From Oleiharenicola sp. (GTDB lineage Bacteria; Verrucomicrobiota; Verrucomicrobiia; Opitutales; Opitutaceae), in assembly GCA_025363455.1 (NCBI GenBank), contig JANYDW010000048.1, positions 56,962-120,961 of the forward strand: a stretch of 64,000 nt of DNA, given 5' to 3'. Positions 2,924 to 18,895 of this stretch are shown piece after piece (positions within the stretch are counted from its first letter, which is position 1; each line of letters opens with the position of its first letter). Under the pieces are notes generated by a model that saw nothing but the letters and a program-made list of their open reading frames with translations, was not told the DNA's origin and ran no database searches. The position numbers were made by a program, and so were the translations under genes.

Positions 2924-4405
2924 TCACCGAGCCGGCAACGCGATGAGCGTGCCGTCGAAACCGGCGGCGATGACTTTGTCCCCCGCCAGCGTGAGAGAGC
3001 CGGCGTAACCACCGAACCCCCCATCGGCCGCGAGGGGTGAAACCAGCTGCCAGATAACCGCCCCCGTCTTGCGATCCAACGCCACCAATCCGCCCTGATG
3101 TGCGATGAGCGTGCCCTCGATATTCTGCGACGCGGTCCCCGTGAAGACGTGTTCGGCGGTCACCAGCGGCGAACCCCAGTTCATGCCGTGGACCTCCGTC
3201 ACCCAGCGGGCCTGGCCGTTGGCCGGGTCGAGCACGACCACCCGGCTGTAATCCGAGGCGCCCACATAGAGCAGCCCGTCGCGCAGCACCGGGGTCGACT
3301 CGATCCACGAGAACCAATAAGAGTATTTCCACGCCACCGCGCCGCTCGCGAGGTTAAAGCCGTAGAGCAGGTAATCGCGACTGCCGACGATCAGCTTGTC
3401 CCCGGCGACAATGGGCGTAGTCACCACCCCACCGCCAGTATGGACACGCAGGGTTTCCTTCCGGGAGTGCCGGTCGAGCAGCACCACCGACCCATCCATC
3501 GTCCCAAACATGAGCGTGTCCGATCCATGCAAACCGACGCCCGAGTAGATCGGTGCGAGGGCGTCATGCCGCCAGAGTTTTTCCCCGGTCGCAGCGGCGA
3601 TGGCGTAGAGCCCTCCGTCGCTGGAGCCAATATAAAGCACCCCGTCGAGCAGCAGCGGCGTGGCGGCGCGGTGATTGAACGTGGGATTGACCGGCGCAGG
3701 TTTGCCCGCGATCCGCTCGTCATGTAGCGGCACGCTCCACCTCAATAAGCCGTCGGCGCGGTTGAGCGCGACGAGGTTGAACTTCGTGTCGAGGAAAAAA
3801 ACGCTGTCCGCGTTTACGACCGCTGCCCCGTCGATGGCGACATGGCCGGGCCAAACCCAACGCACGCTCCCGTCCGCGGCATTCACCGCGTGGAATTTGC
3901 CGTCGCCTGTACCGACGTAGATCATCGCTCCAGCCACGATCGGTGGGGCCCAGGTCCCGAAACCGAGGGAATGCCTCCAGAGCGGCGCCGGGGCGGGCGG
4001 ATGAACGGGCGCGGCCGGCTTTTCGGAAAACTTTCCGCCGCGCTTGAGCGCCAACGGCAACAGACCGGGACCAAATGTTCCGGTGAGCTGGTCCCCTTCT
4101 CGGTGCAGTTTGATGGCGAAAGCTTCCGTGATTGCGTAGTTTCCCTGCCCGTCCCCCTCGACCGGAATCGGGATGACGGCGTTATAGGTGAACATCGCCG
4201 GGAACTGCATCCGGAAAATCAGCGTACCGCGCTTGCTGCGGAAAAAATCCAGCCCGAACTCCGCCACGTCACCTTGGGGCGCGATGATGGTACCGGTCCA
4301 GCAACCCTCGAGGGGGTCGTGGGTTGGTGAGGCCGCCGGCGGTGCCGACTCCTGGGCCCAGCCGAAACTCAGCACCAGGACGAAAGGGAAAAGCCGAAGC
4401 CACAC
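2924..4405 (-). CDS. PQQ-like beta-propeller repeat protein (BamB-like), secreted
   Basis: Repeated blades such as WRHSLGFGTWAPPIVAGAMIYVGTGDGKFHAVNAADGSVRW; GTG at 4405 starts a signal peptide VWLRLFPFVLVLSFGWAQ; upstream 38 codons of the ORF are repeat DNA. Confidence 0.8.
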   Translation of the reverse strand: MWLRLFPFVLVLSFGWAQESAPPAASPTHDPLEGCWTGTIIAPQGDVAEFGLDFFRSKRGTLIFRMQFPAMFTYNAVIPIPVEGDGQGNYAITEAFAIKLHREGDQLTGTFGPGLLPLALKRGGKFSEKPAAPVHPPAPAPLWRHSLGFGTWAPPIVAGAMIYVGTGDGKFHAVNAADGSVRWVWPGHVAIDGAAVVNADSVFFLDTKFNLVALNRADGLLRWSVPLHDERIAGKPAPVNPTFNHRAATPLLLDGVLYIGSSDGGLYAIAAATGEKLWRHDALAPIYSGVGLHGSDTLMFGTMDGSVVLLDRHSRKETLRVHTGGGVVTTPIVAGDKLIVGSRDYLLYGFNLASGAVAWKYSYWFSWIESTPVLRDGLLYVGASDYSRVVVLDPANGQARWVTEVHGMNWGSPLVTAEHVFTGTASQNIEGTLIAHQGGLVALDRKTGAVIWQLVSPLAADGGFGGYAGSLTLAGDKVIAAGFDGTLIALPAR

Positions 4406-8391: not shown

Positions 8392-9207
8392 TCAGAGATG
8401 CGCCTTGAGCTCGTGCACAAAGGTGCGGCTCACCCGCAGTTTCATACCATTGGTCAGCTCAACGCTGTACTCCCCATAGAGGGCCGGGCCCGTCTTCTTC
8501 ATGTGGCGGAGATTCACGATCGTCGAGCGGTGGATGCGCACAAAGTGCTTGGGATCGAGCTTCTCCATCATTTTCTGCAACGACATCCGCACAAACCGTG
8601 ACTTGTCCGTCAAATGAAGCCTTACGTAATCACCGTCGGACTCGATCCACAGGATGTCGTCGGGGGAGAGCATGTGGATCTCGCCATCGCAGCGGATGAA
8701 GAGCCGGCGATCGTCCTCGTGCGACCGGGCCGCAGCGAGGCCCTCCCCGGTGGCCCCGCGGGCCTTGAGCCGCTGCAGGGCCGCCATGATGTCGTCGAGG
8801 CGCTTGCTGAGATCGTGCTGGTCGCGGTTGCGCACGGCGGATTTCGCCCGGCTGAGTGCTTCGGAGAAACGGGCGCGGTTGAAGGGCTTGAGGACATAGT
8901 CGACCGCATGAACCTCGAAGGCCTGCAGGGCGAACTGCTCGTGCGCGGTGACAAACACCACCTGGGGGAGGGACGTCATCGGCAACTTGGCGAGCACCTC
9001 AAAGCCGGTGATGCCCGGCATCTGCACATCGAGGAAGAGCAGCTCGGGCCGTTGCTGTTTAATGGCCTCGATGGCCTGGGGGCCGTTGCCGCATTGGGCG
9101 ATGACCTGGATGTCTGGATCGGGCCGCAGCAGGGCCTCGATATTTTGCCGGGCCAGGATCTCGTCGTCGACAATCATGGTCCGGATGATGGCGGTGGTCG
9201 TAGTCAT
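8392..9207 (-). CDS. LytTR-family response regulator
   Basis: Receiver (TMIVDDEILARQNIE, LLFLDVQMPG, KPF) plus LytTR domain (DYVRLHLTDKSRFVRMSLQKMMEKLDPKHFVRIHRSTIVNLRHM). Confidence 0.93.
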   Translation of the reverse strand: MTTTTAIIRTMIVDDEILARQNIEALLRPDPDIQVIAQCGNGPQAIEAIKQQRPELLFLDVQMPGITGFEVLAKLPMTSLPQVVFVTAHEQFALQAFEVHAVDYVLKPFNRARFSEALSRAKSAVRNRDQHDLSKRLDDIMAALQRLKARGATGEGLAAARSHEDDRRLFIRCDGEIHMLSPDDILWIESDGDYVRLHLTDKSRFVRMSLQKMMEKLDPKHFVRIHRSTIVNLRHMKKTGPALYGEYSVELTNGMKLRVSRTFVHELKAHL

Positions 9208-10340
9208 GGGACGGGTCGGAGGGTAAATGGCAGGGTGATGCGGGCCATGACGCCGCGCGGGGGTTGGTCGCGCAATTCGAACCTGGCCTCGTGTTCGTAG
9301 AGCATGTGCAGCCGGGCGCGGGTGTTCTGTAAGCCGATGCCCGATCCGCTGACCAGTTCGTCCCGCGGCAGCGCGGGCCCGTCGTTGTAGACGGTGAGCA
9401 CCAGCTGGGACTTTACCCGGCGGGCGCTGAGACGGAGCAGGCGGGCGTCCGGGTCACGCGAAATGCCGTGCTTCATGGCATTCTCCGCCAACGGCTGGAG
9501 CATCAGACTGGGCACCAACGCCGGCAGGCACTCAGGCATGATGTCGTACTCAACCTGCAGCCGGTCCTGAAAGCGGACCCGTTCGATCTCAAAGTAGCGG
9601 CGGACAAAATCCAACTCGCGCTCCAGCGTATCCATCGCCTCCTGCCGGTGCTCGAGGGCCCGGCGCAGGAGTTCACCCAGCCCGGCCACCACCTCCTCCG
9701 CCTCCGGCGAGCGGTTGTTGCGGATGAGACTCGTGATGGAGTTCAAGGTGTTGAAGAGGAAATGGGGATGCAGCTGCATCTTCAGCGCATCAAGGCTGGC
9801 GCGCACCAGGCGGGTCTCGAGCCGGGCGTTGGCAACGCGCAGTTCGCTCGTGAGCAACTGCCCCACGCGCCACTCCCGGTAGAAGCTGGCCGCATAAAGG
9901 GCAATGATCGCCATCCAGTAGATCAGCAACGGCGTATAGTCCCAACGTCCCACGGTCTTCAGGTCATGGGTGATCACCGGCAGGTAGGCCCACGGCAGGT
10001 GGTTGGACACCAGCAACCGAATCGCGTCGAGCAGCACGAAGCAGCCCGTGATGACCACTGCCATCACGACGTGCAGCATCAACGACCACAACCAGCGGCG
10101 GTCGAGCAGTGTCAGGCGGCCTTGTAGCCAGATGACCAGCGGGGCCAGGAACCACCAGAACACGGCCGGCGGCCACTCATTCAGGCGCGTGTAACGGAAC
10201 GAGGCGTCCGGGGAACCGGCCAGCCACGAGCGTGCATCCCACAGCAGGAAACCAAGCAATCCCAGCGAGCCGGTCAGCCAAAGCACTCCCCAGAACCGCC
10301 AATCGCGCAGATAAACGGTCCAGGGGTGATCCCGGTTCAT
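9204..10340 (-). CDS. LytS/YehU-type sensor histidine kinase (His_kinase family), about 4 N-terminal TM segments, no obvious extracytoplasmic sensor domain
   Basis: ALKMQLHPHFLFNTLNSITSLIR H-box, PLAENAMKHGI N-box, GIGLQNTRARL; ATG at 10340; stop overlaps the regulator start by 4 nt. Confidence 0.92.
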   Translation of the reverse strand: MNRDHPWTVYLRDWRFWGVLWLTGSLGLLGFLLWDARSWLAGSPDASFRYTRLNEWPPAVFWWFLAPLVIWLQGRLTLLDRRWLWSLMLHVVMAVVITGCFVLLDAIRLLVSNHLPWAYLPVITHDLKTVGRWDYTPLLIYWMAIIALYAASFYREWRVGQLLTSELRVANARLETRLVRASLDALKMQLHPHFLFNTLNSITSLIRNNRSPEAEEVVAGLGELLRRALEHRQEAMDTLERELDFVRRYFEIERVRFQDRLQVEYDIMPECLPALVPSLMLQPLAENAMKHGISRDPDARLLRLSARRVKSQLVLTVYNDGPALPRDELVSGSGIGLQNTRARLHMLYEHEARFELRDQPPRGVMARITLPFTLRPVP

Positions 10341-12006
10341 AGCGATCCCCCCCCCCCCCAACCGGGTGGTCGTGCGGTAGCGGACGGATCGCAAGCCGCT
10401 TCAACGACTGACGGCCGAGCGGATCGGCATACCATCCGTCCACCTCGATCGCCAGCAGGGTGCGCCGGCGTTCAAACATGGTCGGGATCGTCGGTACTGC
10501 ATCCATGACGGTGCGCTCCACCTGCTCCAGCAGCGCCAGACGTTCGGACCCCACCTTGCAATCCGCCAACGCGATGAGCCGGTTGACCTCGGAATTTTCC
10601 CAATGGGTGGCGTTGTAGACTCCGGGCAGGGTAAACGTCGCGAGCATGTCGCCGGCATCGGGCACGGTGGCCAGCAGGCCGTTGTAGAAAATATCGTACT
10701 CGCCCGTGGCCATGCGTTGCTTGCGTTCCAAATCCTTGTCGAAGGCCAGATAAGTGCGGATGCCCAGCTCGCGATACCAGCGTTCCGTCCATGCCTGCAA
10801 ATACGCATAGCGCGGCCAGGCCGGCGCCACCGGCACAACCAGCACGGGGAACCCCTGCCCGCCCGGATAACCGGCTTCGGCCAGCAGATGACGGGCCTCC
10901 GCAGCGTTTTCGTGGAGCAAGGCAAGTCCGGGGCGGCCGGGCATGTCGGGCACCCACGCAAAAGCCGGCACCATGTTCTCGCTGTCCTGGGTCGGAATGG
11001 AACCGGCCCGGTCCAGGGCCAGGGACAAGGCCCGGCGCACCCGCAGATCCTGTAACGGTCCGTGGCTTACATTAAGATCGAGTGCGGTCACCAGCAGGGG
11101 CATTTCGATCGCTTCCGTGACACAGCGGGCCGTGGGCGCCTCCGCCGGCCCTCCGCTCGGGACCGGTGCCGTCATGTCCACGCGACCGGCCGCGACCAGC
11201 AGTTGCGCCATGCTCGGATTATCGACCCGGATGAACTCGGCCCCGGCCAATCGCACCGCCGCCCGGCCGTGATAATGCGGCGAGGCGCGCAGGCGGAAGC
11301 CCTCCAGACCGGCGCGCTCCAAGCAAAAAGCGCCGTTGCCGATCAATTTCTCCGGGTGCCGCCAAAACTCCTGCGCCTTGAGCACAGCCGCCGTCGACTC
11401 ATGCATCGGGGCCAGCAGTGGATCGGCCAGCTCGGACACCAAGGTCGAGCGGACGCCCGCCAGGGTCAGCCTTAGTGTTCGGTCGTCCACCGCCGTCACA
11501 CCCACTGCTGCCGGGTCTTGGGTCTGGCCGCGATGAAATGCTTCGGCGTTTTTAAGCGGAAACAAGGTCGAAGCCGTTTCCGTGTTCTGACGCAGCAACC
11601 GCCGCCAACCGCGGACAAAATCCTGTGCCGTCACCGGTTCGCCATTGCTCCAACGACCATCGGCGCGAAGCTTGAGGGTCAGGACCAGGCGGTCCTCGGA
11701 CCACGCCCAGCTCTCCGCCGCCGCAGGCCGCGGCTGGCCGGTTTCGGGGTCACATTCGATGAGCGGCTCCCACAGACCGAGGATGAACTGGTTCTGCGCC
11801 GGAAGGGGAAACGTGCGCACGTGCGGATCGGGCAGCAACCGCTGGAGGCAGGCGATCCGGAGGATGTTTCCGTCTTCCGCTGCCCGGGGCAGGACCGGCA
11901 GCAAACGCCGCGGCCCGAGAATGACCGCCAGCAGCAAACCGCCCACGCCGGCCAGGGCCAGCGTGGTCCACCAGTGGACACGGGAACTCGCGGTCATCGG
12001 TTGCAA
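10337..12006 (-). CDS. membrane-anchored OppA/SBP_bac_5-type substrate-binding protein (3' end frame-ambiguous at G tract)
   Basis: N-terminal TM (HWWTTLALAGVGGLLLAVIL) then SBP_bac_5 core (LWEPLIECDPETGQPRPAAAESW, WSNGEPVTAQDFVRGWRR). The ORF as given runs to 10177 inside the kinase gene; with 11 or 14 G the stop would be TGA at 10337-10339. Confidence 0.85.
10347..10359. repeat. 13-nt homopolymeric C (+) / G (-) tract at the SBP-kinase junction
   Basis: Read directly: agcgat-CCCCCCCCCCCCC-aaccggg; 6 nt upstream of the kinase ATG on the minus strand. Confidence 0.95.
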
Positions 12007-12110
12007 AGGATGCGGCCCACAAGGGCAGACCGGGCAATGTTTGGCCCCCCGGTCACAACCGGCGGGTTAATTGCGATGAAACGCCAGTTTTCCGCGCCGA
12101 ACGGCAGAAA

Positions 12111-13337
12111 TCAGGCCTTGGGGCCGCCTTGCGCGAAATAACGGGCGCGCAATCGCAGGCCGTTCAGCCGGATGAAGCCCGTGGAGTCACTCTGATTGTA
12201 CCAAGACTTCACGCCCTCCATGGACGCGATGTTCATGTCGTAGAGCGAATACTTCGATTTCCGGCCGCAGGTGATGATGTTGCCCTTGTAGAGCTTGAGG
12301 CGAACGGTGCCCGTGACGTGCTTTTGCGATTCGTCCACCAGCGCCTGCAGGGCCTCGCGCTCGGGCGCGAACCAGAACCCGTAATAAACCAGCTCGGCGT
12401 ACTTCGGGATGAGCGAATCGCGCAGGTGCATGACTTCGCGGTCCATCGTCAGCGATTCGACTTGGCGATGGGCCTGCATGAGGATCGTGCCGCCGGGCGT
12501 CTCGTAGACCCCGCGGGACTTCATGCCGACAAACCGGTTCTCAACCAGGTCGACGCGGCCGATGCCGTGCTTGCCGCCGAGCTTGTTGAGCGCCTTGAGC
12601 ACACCGGCCGGGGAAAGCTTCCGGCCGTTCACGGCCACGCAGTTGCCCTGCACGAAATCGAGCTCCACGTATTCGGGCCGGTTCGGCGCATCTTCGGGCG
12701 AGACGGAAAGCTTGAACATGCCTTTGTTGGCCTTGGTGGTCGGGTCGAACCACGGATCCTCGAGGATACCGGCCTCGTACGAGATGTGCAGGAGATTGCG
12801 ATCCATCGAATAGGGCTTCTTGAGCGAGGCCTCGACCGGGATGCGGTGCTCGCGGCAATACTCGATCATCTCGGCCCGGCCGGGAAATTCATCGCGGAAC
12901 TTTTCGATCTTCCACGGTGCCAATATCGTGAGTCGCGGATTGAGTGCCATGTAGGTCAGTTCAAACCGGCACTGATCGTTGCCCTTGCCCGTTGCTCCGT
13001 GCGCCACGGTGTCCGCCTTTTCCCGTTTCGCGATCTCAACCTGGGCTTTCGCAATGAGGGGCCGGGCGATCGAGGTGCCGAGGTAATATTGCCCTTCGTA
13101 AATCGCGTTGGCCCGGATCATGGGGTAGATGAAGTCCCGGGCGAATTCCTCCACGAGGTCGAGGGTATAATGCTTGGTCGCCCCCGTTTTTCTCGCCTTG
13201 GCGGGCAAGCCTTTTAGCTCCTCCTCCTGTCCGATGTCCGCGGCGAAAGTGACAATTTCCGCGTCGTAGGTCTCCTTGAGCCATTTGACTATGACCGAGG
13301 TGTCGAGGCCGCCTGAGTAAGCGAGAACGATCTTCAT
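12111..13337 (-). CDS. argG: argininosuccinate synthase
   Basis: [43 protein letters not shown] 13337. Confidence 0.96.
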
Positions 13338-13456
13338 GATGGCTCGGCAGTGTTGGCGATAGCCTCCGCCGCGCAAAGTAAAAATGCCGTATGCCTTCCA
13401 TTTGGCCGCCACAGTATTGCTTTTCCAAGCCGCCCGGAGGATGCTGGCTTACTCCC

Positions 13457-13939
13457 ATGAGCAGTGCCCCCCATAGGCCCGGCCATGCTTCCCACCGCGG
13501 ATTCACGCTGGTGGAAATCATGATTGTCGTGGTGATCATCGGCTTGCTCGCCGCCTTGGCCATCCCGGCTTTCCAGCGCAGTCAGCGTGCTTCGCAAAAT
13601 GCGCGGGTGATAAATGATTTTCGCATCTTCATGCAGTCCTTTGAGGTGTATAATACCCAGACTGGCTCGTGGCCGGCAGATTCTCCCGCAGGCATTGTGC
13701 CCGCCGGCATGAGTGGCAACTTCAAGGAAGATACCTGGACCGCCACCACGGCGATTGGCGGTCGCTGGAATTGGGACCAGGGACGAGCATGGGCCACAGC
13801 CGCTGTGGCCATTAGCGGTTTTACCGTATCAGACGCTCAACTTCTGGAGATTGACGCCAAGCTTGACGATGGGAACCTCGCCACGGGGTTTTTTCGGAAG
13901 GTTTCCACCACCAAGATCTGCTATATCGTAGAGCCGTAA
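13457..13939 (+). CDS. type II/IV pseudopilin-like protein with prepilin N-terminal cleavage motif
   Basis: HRGFTLVEIMIVVVIIGLLAALAIPAF directly after a short basic leader; ATG 13457. Confidence 0.85.
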   Translation: MSSAPHRPGHASHRGFTLVEIMIVVVIIGLLAALAIPAFQRSQRASQNARVINDFRIFMQSFEVYNTQTGSWPADSPAGIVPAGMSGNFKEDTWTATTAIGGRWNWDQGRAWATAAVAISGFTVSDAQLLEIDAKLDDGNLATGFFRKVSTTKICYIVEP

Positions 13940-13945
13940 GCGGGG

Positions 13946-14884
13946 CTAAGGGGCGGATGATCTGGTCAGGACGGCAAGGATCGCCTTCTGCATGTGCAGC
14001 CGGTTTTCGGCTTCGTCGAAGATAATGCACCGGGGATTATCGAGGACCTGCTGGGTCACTTCCTCCCCTGCATGGGCCGGCAGGCAATGCATGAAAAGCG
14101 CGTCCTTCTTCGCCGCCGCAAAAAGTTTCCCGTTCACCTGATACGGCAGCAGCTTCCGCTTGCGCGCGGCCGCTTCCTTTTCCTGGCCCATGCTGGTCCA
14201 GACATCGGTATAGACAATATCGGCTCCCGCCACCGCCTCGTAAGGATCGGTGGTGAAATCGAATTCCGCGCCGATCTTCATGGCCTCGGAGCGAACCGTG
14301 GCGCCCGGTTCGTACCCTTTCGGGCCGGCGAGCGCGACCTTCATTCCGAACAGGGAGGCCCCGAGGATCCATGAATTGGCCATGTTGAACCGGGTGTCAC
14401 CCAAGAAGGCGATCTTCCGCCCCTTGAGCGAAGCCAGCAGGTCGCCCTTGGGTCCGGCCCAGTGCTCGGCGGCCGTGAAGGCATCGGCATAGATCTGGCA
14501 GGGGTGCAGATAATCGGTCAGGGCATTGATCACGGGCAGGCCGCCGTGGGCCGCGAGCTGCTCGAGGTCGGACTGCGCATAGGTCCGCACGATGAGGCCG
14601 TGCACGAAACGCGACAGTACCTTTGCAGTGTCGGCAATGGTCTCGCCGCGACCGATCTGGATGTCATTGGTGTTGAGAAATAGCGGATTCCCGCCCAGCT
14701 CATGGATCGCCACCTCGAACGACACCCGGGTGCGCGTGCTCGACTTGGCAAAGATCATCGCCCAGGTCTGGCCTGCAAGCAGCTGGAGGCGCTGGCCCCG
14801 CTTGCGTTTCAGGTCGCGGGCCAACGCAAATATCTCCGCCACCTCGGCGCGGGAGAAATCGGTTTCCTTGAGAAAATGCCTCAT
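13946..14884 (-). CDS. argF: ornithine carbamoyltransferase
   Basis: KSSTRTRVSFE, MHCLPAHAGEEV; ATG 14884 (MRHFLKETDFSRAEVAEIF). Confidence 0.95.
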   Translation of the reverse strand: MRHFLKETDFSRAEVAEIFALARDLKRKRGQRLQLLAGQTWAMIFAKSSTRTRVSFEVAIHELGGNPLFLNTNDIQIGRGETIADTAKVLSRFVHGLIVRTYAQSDLEQLAAHGGLPVINALTDYLHPCQIYADAFTAAEHWAGPKGDLLASLKGRKIAFLGDTRFNMANSWILGASLFGMKVALAGPKGYEPGATVRSEAMKIGAEFDFTTDPYEAVAGADIVYTDVWTSMGQEKEAAARKRKLLPYQVNGKLFAAAKKDALFMHCLPAHAGEEVTQQVLDNPRCIIFDEAENRLHMQKAILAVLTRSSAP

Positions 14885-15081
14885 GAAACAAATTGTTTTG
14901 CCGGGGCGCCCAACCGTCGGCGAGTGCGAAATAAGCCTCGTCAGAGTATACCTCCCCCAGAAAATGCAGGCCAAGTGCCTGCTTACTGCCGGGGAGGCCG
15001 GGACGCGCCCGGCCGCAGCGGATCTTGGCCCCGAACCGCTGCGGCTAATCTAACTCTTACCCGGTTACACCAGTGATCATG

Positions 15082-15107
15082 GGGTGTTTGGTCAATGCCA
15101 AACACCC
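15082..15107. promoter_or_regulatory. perfect 10-bp inverted repeat GGGTGTTTGG-tcaatg-CCAAACACCC, candidate operator
   Basis: Read directly; ends 13 nt before a GTG start of an XRE-type gene. Confidence 0.55.
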
Positions 15108-15120
15108 TAGGCTCGCTGGT

Positions 15121-15477
15121 GTGTCTTCGCTCGATGCTCTCGCTTCCCGCCTCCGCCGGCTCCGTCAGCGCCACAAACTGACCCAAGAGCAATTCGCTGA
15201 GTCCATCGGGCTGAACTATAAGTTTTATCAACAGATCGAGGCGGGACGCAAAAAGCAGATCTGGCTCGAAACGGTGGAGCGGTTGGCCAAGGGCTTTGGA
15301 TTGGAACCATGGCAACTCCTCGCACCCGATGAACCTGCGCATACGACAATCCGCAGTCGCACCAGCAAAGAGGAAATGGTTGACCACCGGGTGGTCGCAG
15401 AAGCCGCTGGTCCTTACGTTGCGAAGACAGCGAGGAAACGAAAACCCCTAAAATCGGACCGTAAACCCGCCAGGTAA
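15121..15477 (+). CDS. XRE-family helix-turn-helix transcriptional regulator
   Basis: SRLRRLRQRHKLTQEQFAESIGLNYKFYQQIEAGRK HTH_3 signature; ORF 15073..15477, GTG 15121 preferred because the upstream ORF codes through the dyad. Confidence 0.75.
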   Translation: MSSLDALASRLRRLRQRHKLTQEQFAESIGLNYKFYQQIEAGRKKQIWLETVERLAKGFGLEPWQLLAPDEPAHTTIRSRTSKEEMVDHRVVAEAAGPYVAKTARKRKPLKSDRKPAR

Positions 15478-15570
15478 CCCGACCGGCAACTCTTCACTGT
15501 AGGAGACCGTTTGCAACGGGATCCAGCAAGGGGTCGGTGGCATGAGGCTCTGCCTCACCTGGCGACTTGG

Positions 15571-16791
15571 TCACTTCGCCAGCGTACCCAGCGCAGAGCG
15601 GATGATGGCCGTCGCACGATCGAGGTCAGACTTGGTCGCGATCAGCGGTGGCAGGAGCCGGACCGTGTTGCCACCGGCAGTGGGCGCCAGCAGCCCGGCC
15701 TCACGCAAGGCGGCGACACAAGGTGCCGGCTCGCTCTGCAGAACAACACCGATCATGTAGCCGCGACCGGTGACCGCCTTCACCTGCTTGGGGAGATCAG
15801 TGATAAGTTTTTCGAGCTCGGTCTTCCAAGCGGCGCCGTTGACGCGGACTTTTTCGAGCAGGTTGTCCTTCGCCATGACGTCGAGCACGGCCAGGGCAGC
15901 CGCGCAGGCGAGCGGCGTGCCGCCAAAGGTCGAGCCGTGCGTGCCGGGCGTAAACAGCTCGGCGTGCTTTTCGGCCGCCCAGATCGCACCCATGGGGTAG
16001 CCACCAGCTATGCCCTTGGCCATGCCGACCGCATCAGCCCGGATGCCCGAAGCTTGGAAAGCGTAGAACGTGCCCGTGCGGCCGATGCCGCACTGCACCT
16101 CGTCCAGCATGAGCAGCAGGTTGTGCTGGTCGCACAGCTTGCGCAGGCCCCACAAAAACTCGTCGGTGCAGGGATTGACCCCCCCCTCCCCTTGTACGGT
16201 CTCGACAAAAATCGCCGCGGTGTCCGCATCCACGAGGTCAACAAAGCTCTGCAGGTTGTTGATCTCGCCGAAGGAGAAGCCCGGCACCAGCGGCCGGAAC
16301 CCCTTCTGGATCTTCTCCTGCGGGGTGGCGCTCATGCCGCCGAAAGTGCGCCCGTGGAATGCCTGCTTCGCACAGATGATCTTGTAGCACTTGCCCTCCT
16401 CGCCTGTTTTGCGGACGCCGTGCAGCCGCGCGAGCTTGATCAGGCCCTCGTTGGCCTCGGTGCCACTGTTGCAGAAGAACACCCGGCCGGGCCCCGCGTG
16501 CTGCACAATGCGCCGCGCCAGCTCGCCCTGATTGGGATGCCGAAAAAGATTGCTGACGTGGATGAGTTCGCCCGCCTGCCGCCGGATCGCCTCAACCCAG
16601 GCCGGGTGACAATGGCCCAATGCAGCCACCGCCACGCCTGAAGTGAAATCGAGATACTCACGGCCCGTGTCATCCCACACCGAAACGCCCTGCCCACGCA
16701 CCAGCGTGAGCGGCGCGCGCGCGTAGTTCTTCATGACATAGGCATCATAAAGCTCGGCGGTGTTCGTCCGGACAATGGAAGGGAGGGACAT
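15571..16791 (-). CDS. argD: acetylornithine aminotransferase (class III PLP aminotransferase)
   Basis: VSVWDDTGREYLDFTSGVAVAALGHCHP, FFCNSGTEANEG, LLMLDEVQCGIGRTG, HGSTFGGTPLACAAALAVLD. Confidence 0.93.
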   Translation of the reverse strand: MSLPSIVRTNTAELYDAYVMKNYARAPLTLVRGQGVSVWDDTGREYLDFTSGVAVAALGHCHPAWVEAIRRQAGELIHVSNLFRHPNQGELARRIVQHAGPGRVFFCNSGTEANEGLIKLARLHGVRKTGEEGKCYKIICAKQAFHGRTFGGMSATPQEKIQKGFRPLVPGFSFGEINNLQSFVDLVDADTAAIFVETVQGEGGVNPCTDEFLWGLRKLCDQHNLLLMLDEVQCGIGRTGTFYAFQASGIRADAVGMAKGIAGGYPMGAIWAAEKHAELFTPGTHGSTFGGTPLACAAALAVLDVMAKDNLLEKVRVNGAAWKTELEKLITDLPKQVKAVTGRGYMIGVVLQSEPAPCVAALREAGLLAPTAGGNTVRLLPPLIATKSDLDRATAIIRSALGTLAK

Positions 16792-16810
16792 TTATTGATT
16801 TTGGATTCCG

Positions 16811-16858
16811 GATTTTCGATTCTCGGGCGGCTTGATCAAAAATCGAGAGTCGAAAATC
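16811..16858. repeat. AT-rich near-perfect inverted repeat (15-bp arms, 1 mismatch) between argB and argD
   Basis: gattttcgattctcg ... cgagagtcgaaaatc read directly. Confidence 0.8.
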
Positions 16859-16868
16859 GAAAATAATG

Positions 16869-17759
16869 TCAGCCGTGCACAATTTCCGTCCCCACACCTT
16901 TGTCGGTGAAAATCTCCAAGAGCAGGCTGTGCGGCATCCGGCCGTCAATGAAATGGACGCGTTGTACGCCTTCTTCGAGGGCGCGCACGGCGCTCTGCAC
17001 CTTTGGGCGCATGCCCTTGTCGATGATGCCTTTTTTCTTGAGACCGTCGACCTCGCTGACCTTAAGCGAGGAAATCAGCGAATCGGGATTCTTGAAGTCA
17101 GCCATCAAGCCGGGCACATCGCTCATGTACACCAGCCGGCGGGCGCGCAGCGCGCTGGCCACGCGGCCGGCCACGAGGTCGGCGTTCACATTGTACGGCT
17201 TGCCGTCGAGCCCCTCGGCCACGGGCGAGATCACCGGCATAAACCCGTCGGCGATCTCCTTTTTGATGAGCTTCACCTTCACTTCGGTCACATCCCCAAC
17301 GTAACCAAGGTCACAAGGCTTGCCGTCGTCATCGACGGTGAGTTTCTGGCAGACAATCACGCTATCGCCCGCCATCCCCTTCGGGTTGGCGCGGACCGCG
17401 GAGAGCGTGTCGCACACGTCCTTGTTCACCACCTCATGGAGTGTCTTCTTGACGATGGCGATGGTGGCTTCGTCGGTCACGCGCATGCCGTTCACGAAGT
17501 TCGGCTTCAAGCCCGCGCCGTCCATCGCGCGGCTGATGGCCTTACCCCCACCGTGGACCACGACGACATGGATTCCCGCCGCGGCGAGAAAGGCGATGTC
17601 CGTGGCGACCCGCTGACGCATCGTCGGGTCGGGATCGTCCATAAAGCTGCCACCATATTTCACGACAAAGATGGAGCCCCGGAAATCCTGGATGTAGGGC
17701 AATGCTTCGTGGAGCACGCGTGCCTTGCCAATGAGTTCGGTCAGTTCGAGGGTACTCAC
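16869..17759 (-). CDS. argB: acetylglutamate kinase
   Basis: [58 protein letters not shown]. Confidence 0.95.
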
Positions 17760-18895
17760 AGATTTTCGTGCACGACCTTCGCCGGCGGGAACCCGTTGAA
17801 ATACGTGGCCGAGGCATGGCTGTAGGCGCCGATGTTGACGCTATAGACGAGATCACCGCGCTTCAAATCGGGCAGGTTCTCGGCCATCGAGACGACGTCG
17901 AGCGCGTCGCAGGTCGGGCCGAAGACGGAACTAAGGCTGGTCGGTCCCTTCTTGAAGGCCATGACCGGGTACTTGCAGTGATCGAAGATGACGCCCGAGT
18001 AGGTGTGATAGACACCGTCGTTGATGTAGTAGCTCGTCTTGCCCTCCCGGACAACCTTGCCGATGACAGAGGAAACGCTCGTGCCGCAGACGGCCGCGAG
18101 GAAACGTCCCGGCTCGGCGAGGACCTGAATGTCCCGGGAAAAAAGACGGTCGAGCTCGGTATTGATCACTTTGGCCAGCTCGGGAAACGGTCGCACGGAC
18201 GAATCATACGGCGCCGGAAACCCGCCGCCGATGTCGAGCAGGTTCATCTTGGTGTAGCCGCGATCGCGGGCTTCCTGGAAAATGTTGGCCGTGAGACTGA
18301 GCGCCTGGACGTAGTTCTCGTAGTTCGTCGTCTGGCTTCCGACGTGAAAGCTGATGCCCTCGACCGTGAGGCCCAGACGGTCAGCCTCGAGGATGAGGTC
18401 CACCGCCTCGCCCGGCAGCGCGCCGAATTTGGACGATAGCTCCACCATCGCGCCGGTGTTGGGGACCTTGAGGCGCAACGCGAGGCCCGCATTGGGTGCG
18501 TGCTGCTTGATCTTGTGGATCTCCTCGAGGTTGTCGAAGGTGACGAGCGGCTTGTATTTGTTCAGCTGCTCCAGCGTGTCCGTCGGCTTGGTCGGATTGG
18601 CGTAGATGATCTTGTCCCAGATCCAGTCCTGGCGCTTCTTCGCCGGCATTTTCCTGATGTTCTCGTAGACGATCATGAACTCCGGCATCGAGGCGACGTC
18701 GAAGCTGGCACCCTCCTTAAAAAGGGTGCGCACGATCAGCGGGTCGGGGTTGGCCTTGACCGCGTAGTAGGCCTGGATGCGTGGCAGGTGCCGACGAAAC
18801 TCCCGGTAAGCTTTCCTCAGCGCGTCATGGTCGATGACGAACAGCGGTGTGCCGTGTTTCTTCGCGAGTTGCTGGAGCCGGGCTTTGGAGATCAT
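17756..18895 (-). CDS. ornithine decarboxylase, type III PLP (alanine racemase-fold) family
   Basis: [54 protein letters not shown]; overlaps argB start by 4 nt. Confidence 0.9.

Follow-up and report, generated by a model that had tools for sequence, protein, structure and literature searches.

In Helicobacter canadensis, G13 tracts have been observed as G10-16 or G11-16 within populations, and poly-G tracts at the 3′ ends of genes change the C terminus of the product, such that HCAN_0660 and HCAN_0661 could merge (PMC2823697). This is the closest precedent for the locus described here, with which it shares G10-14 tracts at gene 3′ ends, an altered C terminus, and possible merger with the next gene. 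However, length variation in H. canadensis was observed in reads, whereas one assembled length is known here, and our tract also overlaps a conserved start/stop overlap and the Shine-Dalgarno position of a sensor kinase gene. A second parallel is the poly-C tract of Bordetella pertussis bvgS (PMC1891110), where homopolymer length could likewise control signaling from a sensor-kinase operon. In that case C6/C7 lies inside the kinase gene and C7 truncates the product, while here the tract precedes the kinase start and the kinase frame is intact. In Akkermansia muciniphila, a member of the same phylum, long G runs occur in a few genes and slippage has been proposed (PMC3048395); those tracts differ from ours in lying within the coding sequence of capsule genes, and slippage there is a proposal only. 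As for the proteins, the BtsS/BtsR system also pairs a PF06580 kinase with a LytTR regulator (PMC10653868), but BtsS has seven transmembrane helices, whereas the kinase described here has four predicted helices and a linked SBP_bac_5 gene.

The locus is in a 64,000-nt stretch of contig JANYDW010000048.1 (the window) from Oleiharenicola sp., a member of the Opitutaceae (Verrucomicrobiota) related to Lacunisphaera whose source assembly is an 83-contig draft. It consists of genes for a solute-binding protein (SBP), a sensor kinase, and a response regulator (Table 1). With its His_kinase and HATPase_c domains and a Response_reg-LytTR partner, the kinase belongs to a LytS/LytTR two-component system. 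The SBP has one N-terminal hydrophobic helix. The conserved part of its open reading frame (ORF) spans 10360-12006, with an ATG option at 11997. Beyond argG, further upstream, are genes that we take, from their sequences, to be argF, argD, and argB. The series argB, argD, argF, argG followed by the SBP/kinase/LytTR operon (window positions 8392-18895) is a conserved block in the genus, and in most of the genomes that have it the order includes a pilin-like gene on the opposite strand. The arg context hints at a possible link between the sensor and the supply of peptides or amino acids.

Table 1. Positions of the operon, its upstream neighbor, and the junction elements in the window
Feature	Position	Strand	Remarks
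SBP_bac_5 family peptide-type solute-binding protein ORF, 13 G as assembled	10177..12006	-	out-of-register tail of ~54 aa
LytS-type sensor kinase, 378 aa, four predicted transmembrane helices	9204..10340	-	His_kinase PF06580 and HATPase_c
LytTR response regulator	8392..9207	-	ATGA overlap with kinase
argG, conserved upstream neighbor	12111..13331	-	anchors operon orthology
G13 homopolymer (C13 on + strand)	10347..10359	-	last SBP codons and Shine-Dalgarno position for kinase
ATGA: kinase start and out-of-frame TGA ending the SBP gene at 11 or 14 G	10337..10340	-	overlap conserved in orthologs (8 ATGA, 1 GTGA)

The G13 tract at the SBP/kinase junction is present in the assembled sequence with the flanks given in the preliminary description, reading CCGGTT-G13-ATCGCTATGAAC on the minus strand (given also as CCGGTT-G13-ATCGCTATGAACCGG). 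The range reported earlier, 10337-10359, comprises the tract, ATCGCT, and the kinase ATGA, with the kinase ATG at 10340-10338. We computed the reading frames across the junction for tract lengths of 8-16 G. With 11 or 14 G, the SBP frame ends ...GSL*, with its stop at the ATGA; at 11 G the C terminus is ...HPVGGGGSL*, a tail near those of the orthologs in length. With 12 or 15 G, the SBP frame joins the kinase frame with no stop between them. With 13 or 16 G, it overruns the kinase start, and at the assembled 13 G the SBP stop is at 10179-10177, 164 nt beyond the A of the kinase ATG. These frames agree with the three outcomes previously proposed for 11/14, 12, and 13 G, and the 4-nt ATGA overlap reported at the kinase/regulator joint is present at 9207-9204. 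Because the ATG at 10340 lies 3′ of the tract, the kinase frame is unaffected at every tract length; what varies is how the SBP gene ends and where that end falls relative to the kinase start.

Among 21 genomes of the genus, the kinase was found in 10, this genome included. In the nine other operons the SBP is 50-67% identical and the kinase 62-80% identical to those in the window, the closest ortholog in the contig scan being that of a Lacunisphaera sp. MAG (80% kinase identity). Genes of the arg series precede the operon at eight of the nine orthologous loci; the contig of the ninth is short and showed no arg gene. At the SBP/kinase joint, all nine relatives have a 4-nt overlap between the TGA that ends the SBP gene and the kinase start, and all have ATGA at the kinase/regulator joint, so that the overlap characteristic of translational coupling occurs at both joints of every ortholog. 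In the window, the kinase/regulator joint has this overlap as assembled; the SBP/kinase joint has it only if the tract is 11 or 14 G long. The CTATGA of the window recurs in four relatives (L012, L013, L014, and L016), and two of the closest relatives have GGAGG-type sites at the tract position (GGCGAGGAGG in L010 and GGGGAGGAGGGG in L012). None of the nine orthologous junctions contains a long G run, the longest being 3-5 nt, and none of the nine operons contains an SBP-kinase fusion.

From these nine orthologs, which have the 4-nt overlap and lack the G run, we infer that the G13 tract is private to this genome or species and that the 11/14-G register is ancestral for the genus; the comparison settles the ancestral frame whether or not the tract varies. 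The suggestion that 11 or 14 G is the ordinary operon form is thus borne out, as every ortholog has that overlap. The suggestion of a switch among three selected architectures fares poorly: the preliminary description itself had held that relatives sharing the operon layout but lacking any G tract would speak against a switch, and all nine orthologous operons are of this kind. In another species (L017, genome G005), an A9 run lies within the first codons of the orthologous kinase gene (junction near 3087-3130), which makes it a second homopolymer at this gene start.

It had also been suggested that tract length may alter the kinase ribosome-binding site. This claim is weak. The 3′ edge of the tract is fixed 6 nt from the kinase ATG, and growth proceeds away from the ATG. 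Since this spacer does not change, predicted pairing with a generic bacterial anti-Shine-Dalgarno sequence, which may differ from that of the host, is equal for 10-16 G. With predicted pairing and spacing independent of tract length, we rejected tuning of the ribosome-binding site as the main effect. Local folding differs by ~2 kcal/mol between 11 and 14 G. In five of the nine relatives, Shine-Dalgarno pairing is almost absent (-2.5 to -4.1 kcal/mol, calculated with a generic anti-Shine-Dalgarno sequence), suggesting that kinase translation is normally begun by ribosomes that have just finished the SBP. Loss of translational coupling is the only plausible length-dependent effect remaining.

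We consider it probable that the junction carries a lineage-specific slippery tract, possibly miscounted, over a conserved and probably coupled 4-nt overlap, with 11 or 14 G as the working register. The start/stop overlaps that join the three genes would couple kinase translation to SBP translation. The purine-rich region that holds the last SBP codons and the Shine-Dalgarno site appears, in this species alone, to have turned into a pure G tract, probably through A-to-G changes and slippage in a sequence like the GGGGAGGAGGGG of a relative, in which two A-to-G changes would give 12 G. Such an origin would explain a G tract at this site without selection for switching. G/C tracts of this length are expected to slip during replication, and the assembled 13 may be either a miscount by one or two bases or an allele that had slipped in the population sampled. 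Were 12-G or 13-G alleles real, the ribosome translating the SBP would no longer stop at the kinase start and coupling would be lost. The kinase would then be initiated solely from its own G-rich Shine-Dalgarno site, with a predicted change in dosage, and the SBP would acquire an unrelated tail.

It is a real if lesser possibility that assembly error alone accounts for the observation and that the genome has an invariant 11 or 14 G in all cells. The likelihoods we assign to this plain miscount and to the slippery tract overlap, as a miscount is one branch of the latter explanation; the plain miscount differs in having a stable tract. That a miscounted homopolymer is the main alternative, as first proposed, is supported by the draft state of the assembly and by the position of 13 outside the conserved register. 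Homopolymers this long are the commonest site of length errors. However, the C8 inside argD (16179-16186) is in frame, so there is no general homopolymer error, and a 13-G allele may be real. We rejected a poly-G read artifact of the kind that can occur at a contig end, since the tract lies well inside its contig, at 67 kb of 121 kb, between conserved genes. One contig of the same genome (G000:C14; L002, 1-38) opens with a low-complexity C8/C24 stretch that may be such an assembly end artifact.

Chance does not account for the G13 tract, the sole G/C run longer than 8 in the window; a 13-G run arose in one of 100 dinucleotide shuffles of the window. Pattern searches of the genome found 108 runs of 7 or more and 8 of 9 or more; run-length decay, estimated from runs other than those at contig ends and the tract itself, puts the expected number of runs of at least 13 at 0.012 (95% range 0.0007-0.11). 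The tract is thus an outlier in its own genome, is long enough for hypermutability, and is placed where its length alters the frame, as would be expected of a lineage-specific contingency locus in which selected, reversible slippage switches kinase dosage or the SBP C terminus. Moreover, 13 falls within the range that varies in H. canadensis populations (PMC2823697), and the operon encodes a sensory regulator, as does bvgS, a kinase gene known for phase variation (PMC1891110). Of 85 genomes searched (this genome counted), 49 contain G tracts of at least 11; as G/C tracts of this size also lie within family members assembled as single contigs, they can be genuine in the group. Several observations nevertheless make a contingency locus unlikely. 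The tract is conserved in none of the nine orthologs, and the switch would cleanly turn off no gene. The remaining internal G/C runs of 9 or more in the genome all end at 9 (one pair, on contig C71, is inside a predicted gene), giving no clear sign of a wider phasome, and the long runs in relatives are mostly intergenic or close to contig ends. A family-wide G-tract phasome was also considered and rejected: tracts are widespread, but many are intergenic or at contig ends, and no gene or position was seen to be shared among them. Doubtful to a greater degree is the narrower idea of a recently gained, slippage-driven dosage switch in a free-living verrucomicrobium, in which the G tract would toggle SBP/kinase coupling and not truncation.

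Programmed transcriptional slippage, in which a G tract of a single length in the DNA would give rise to mRNAs in fixed proportions, is highly improbable. A long homopolymer does lie at a frame junction, but known cases mostly use A or T runs and programmed sites are under purifying selection (PMC3711429), whereas the site described here is not conserved: a site of programmed slippage or frameshifting would be shared among homologs, and the G tract recurs at none of the nine orthologous junctions.

Least credible of all is a functional SBP-kinase fusion in the 12-G state, that is, a sensor with a built-in binding protein. The frames do join at 12 or 15 G, and kinases with built-in periplasmic binding domains, such as BvgS and EvgS, exist, but the SBP is anchored N-in/C-out by its single helix and the N terminus of the four-helix kinase is inside (hydrophobic helices 14-40, 58-78, 83-112, and 136-188, modeled with moderate confidence; four are also found across the N-terminal half of the orthologs), so that a fusion would have the wrong orientation or a lost helix. 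We rejected a conserved fusion, as each of the nine orthologs examined has the overlap instead.

The slippery tract that we favor represents no new kind of mechanism; if variation is shown, it would join known phase variation at poly-G and other homopolymers. Should tract length prove variable in living cells, the locus would serve as a clean natural experiment on the way a start/stop overlap determines sensor-kinase dosage, and as an instance of heterogeneity driven by slippage in a verrucomicrobium from the environment. Should it prove invariant, the lesson would be that gene fusions deduced from homopolymers in one draft assembly have to be checked against orthologs and reads.

Other runs were noted during the searches. 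In this genome (G000), an 849-nt gene, predicted from its codon score, contains an inverted pair made up of a G9 at its nucleotide 174 and a C9 a few bases further along (L098, 1503-1527). G014 has an equally long gene with a G9 at the same place (L116, 1504-1512), and this intragenic G9 may be conserved. The string CCCCCCCCATG occurs 48 times in 57 genomes; the reversed string, a biased control, occurs 14 times. Finally, at five loci of the same genus (L042, L069, L104, L114, and L130, each near position 1500), C9-C11 runs abut the ATG of intact, unrelated genes, which by eye we take to encode a POT-type transporter, an M16-type peptidase, a SucB-like protein, and others.
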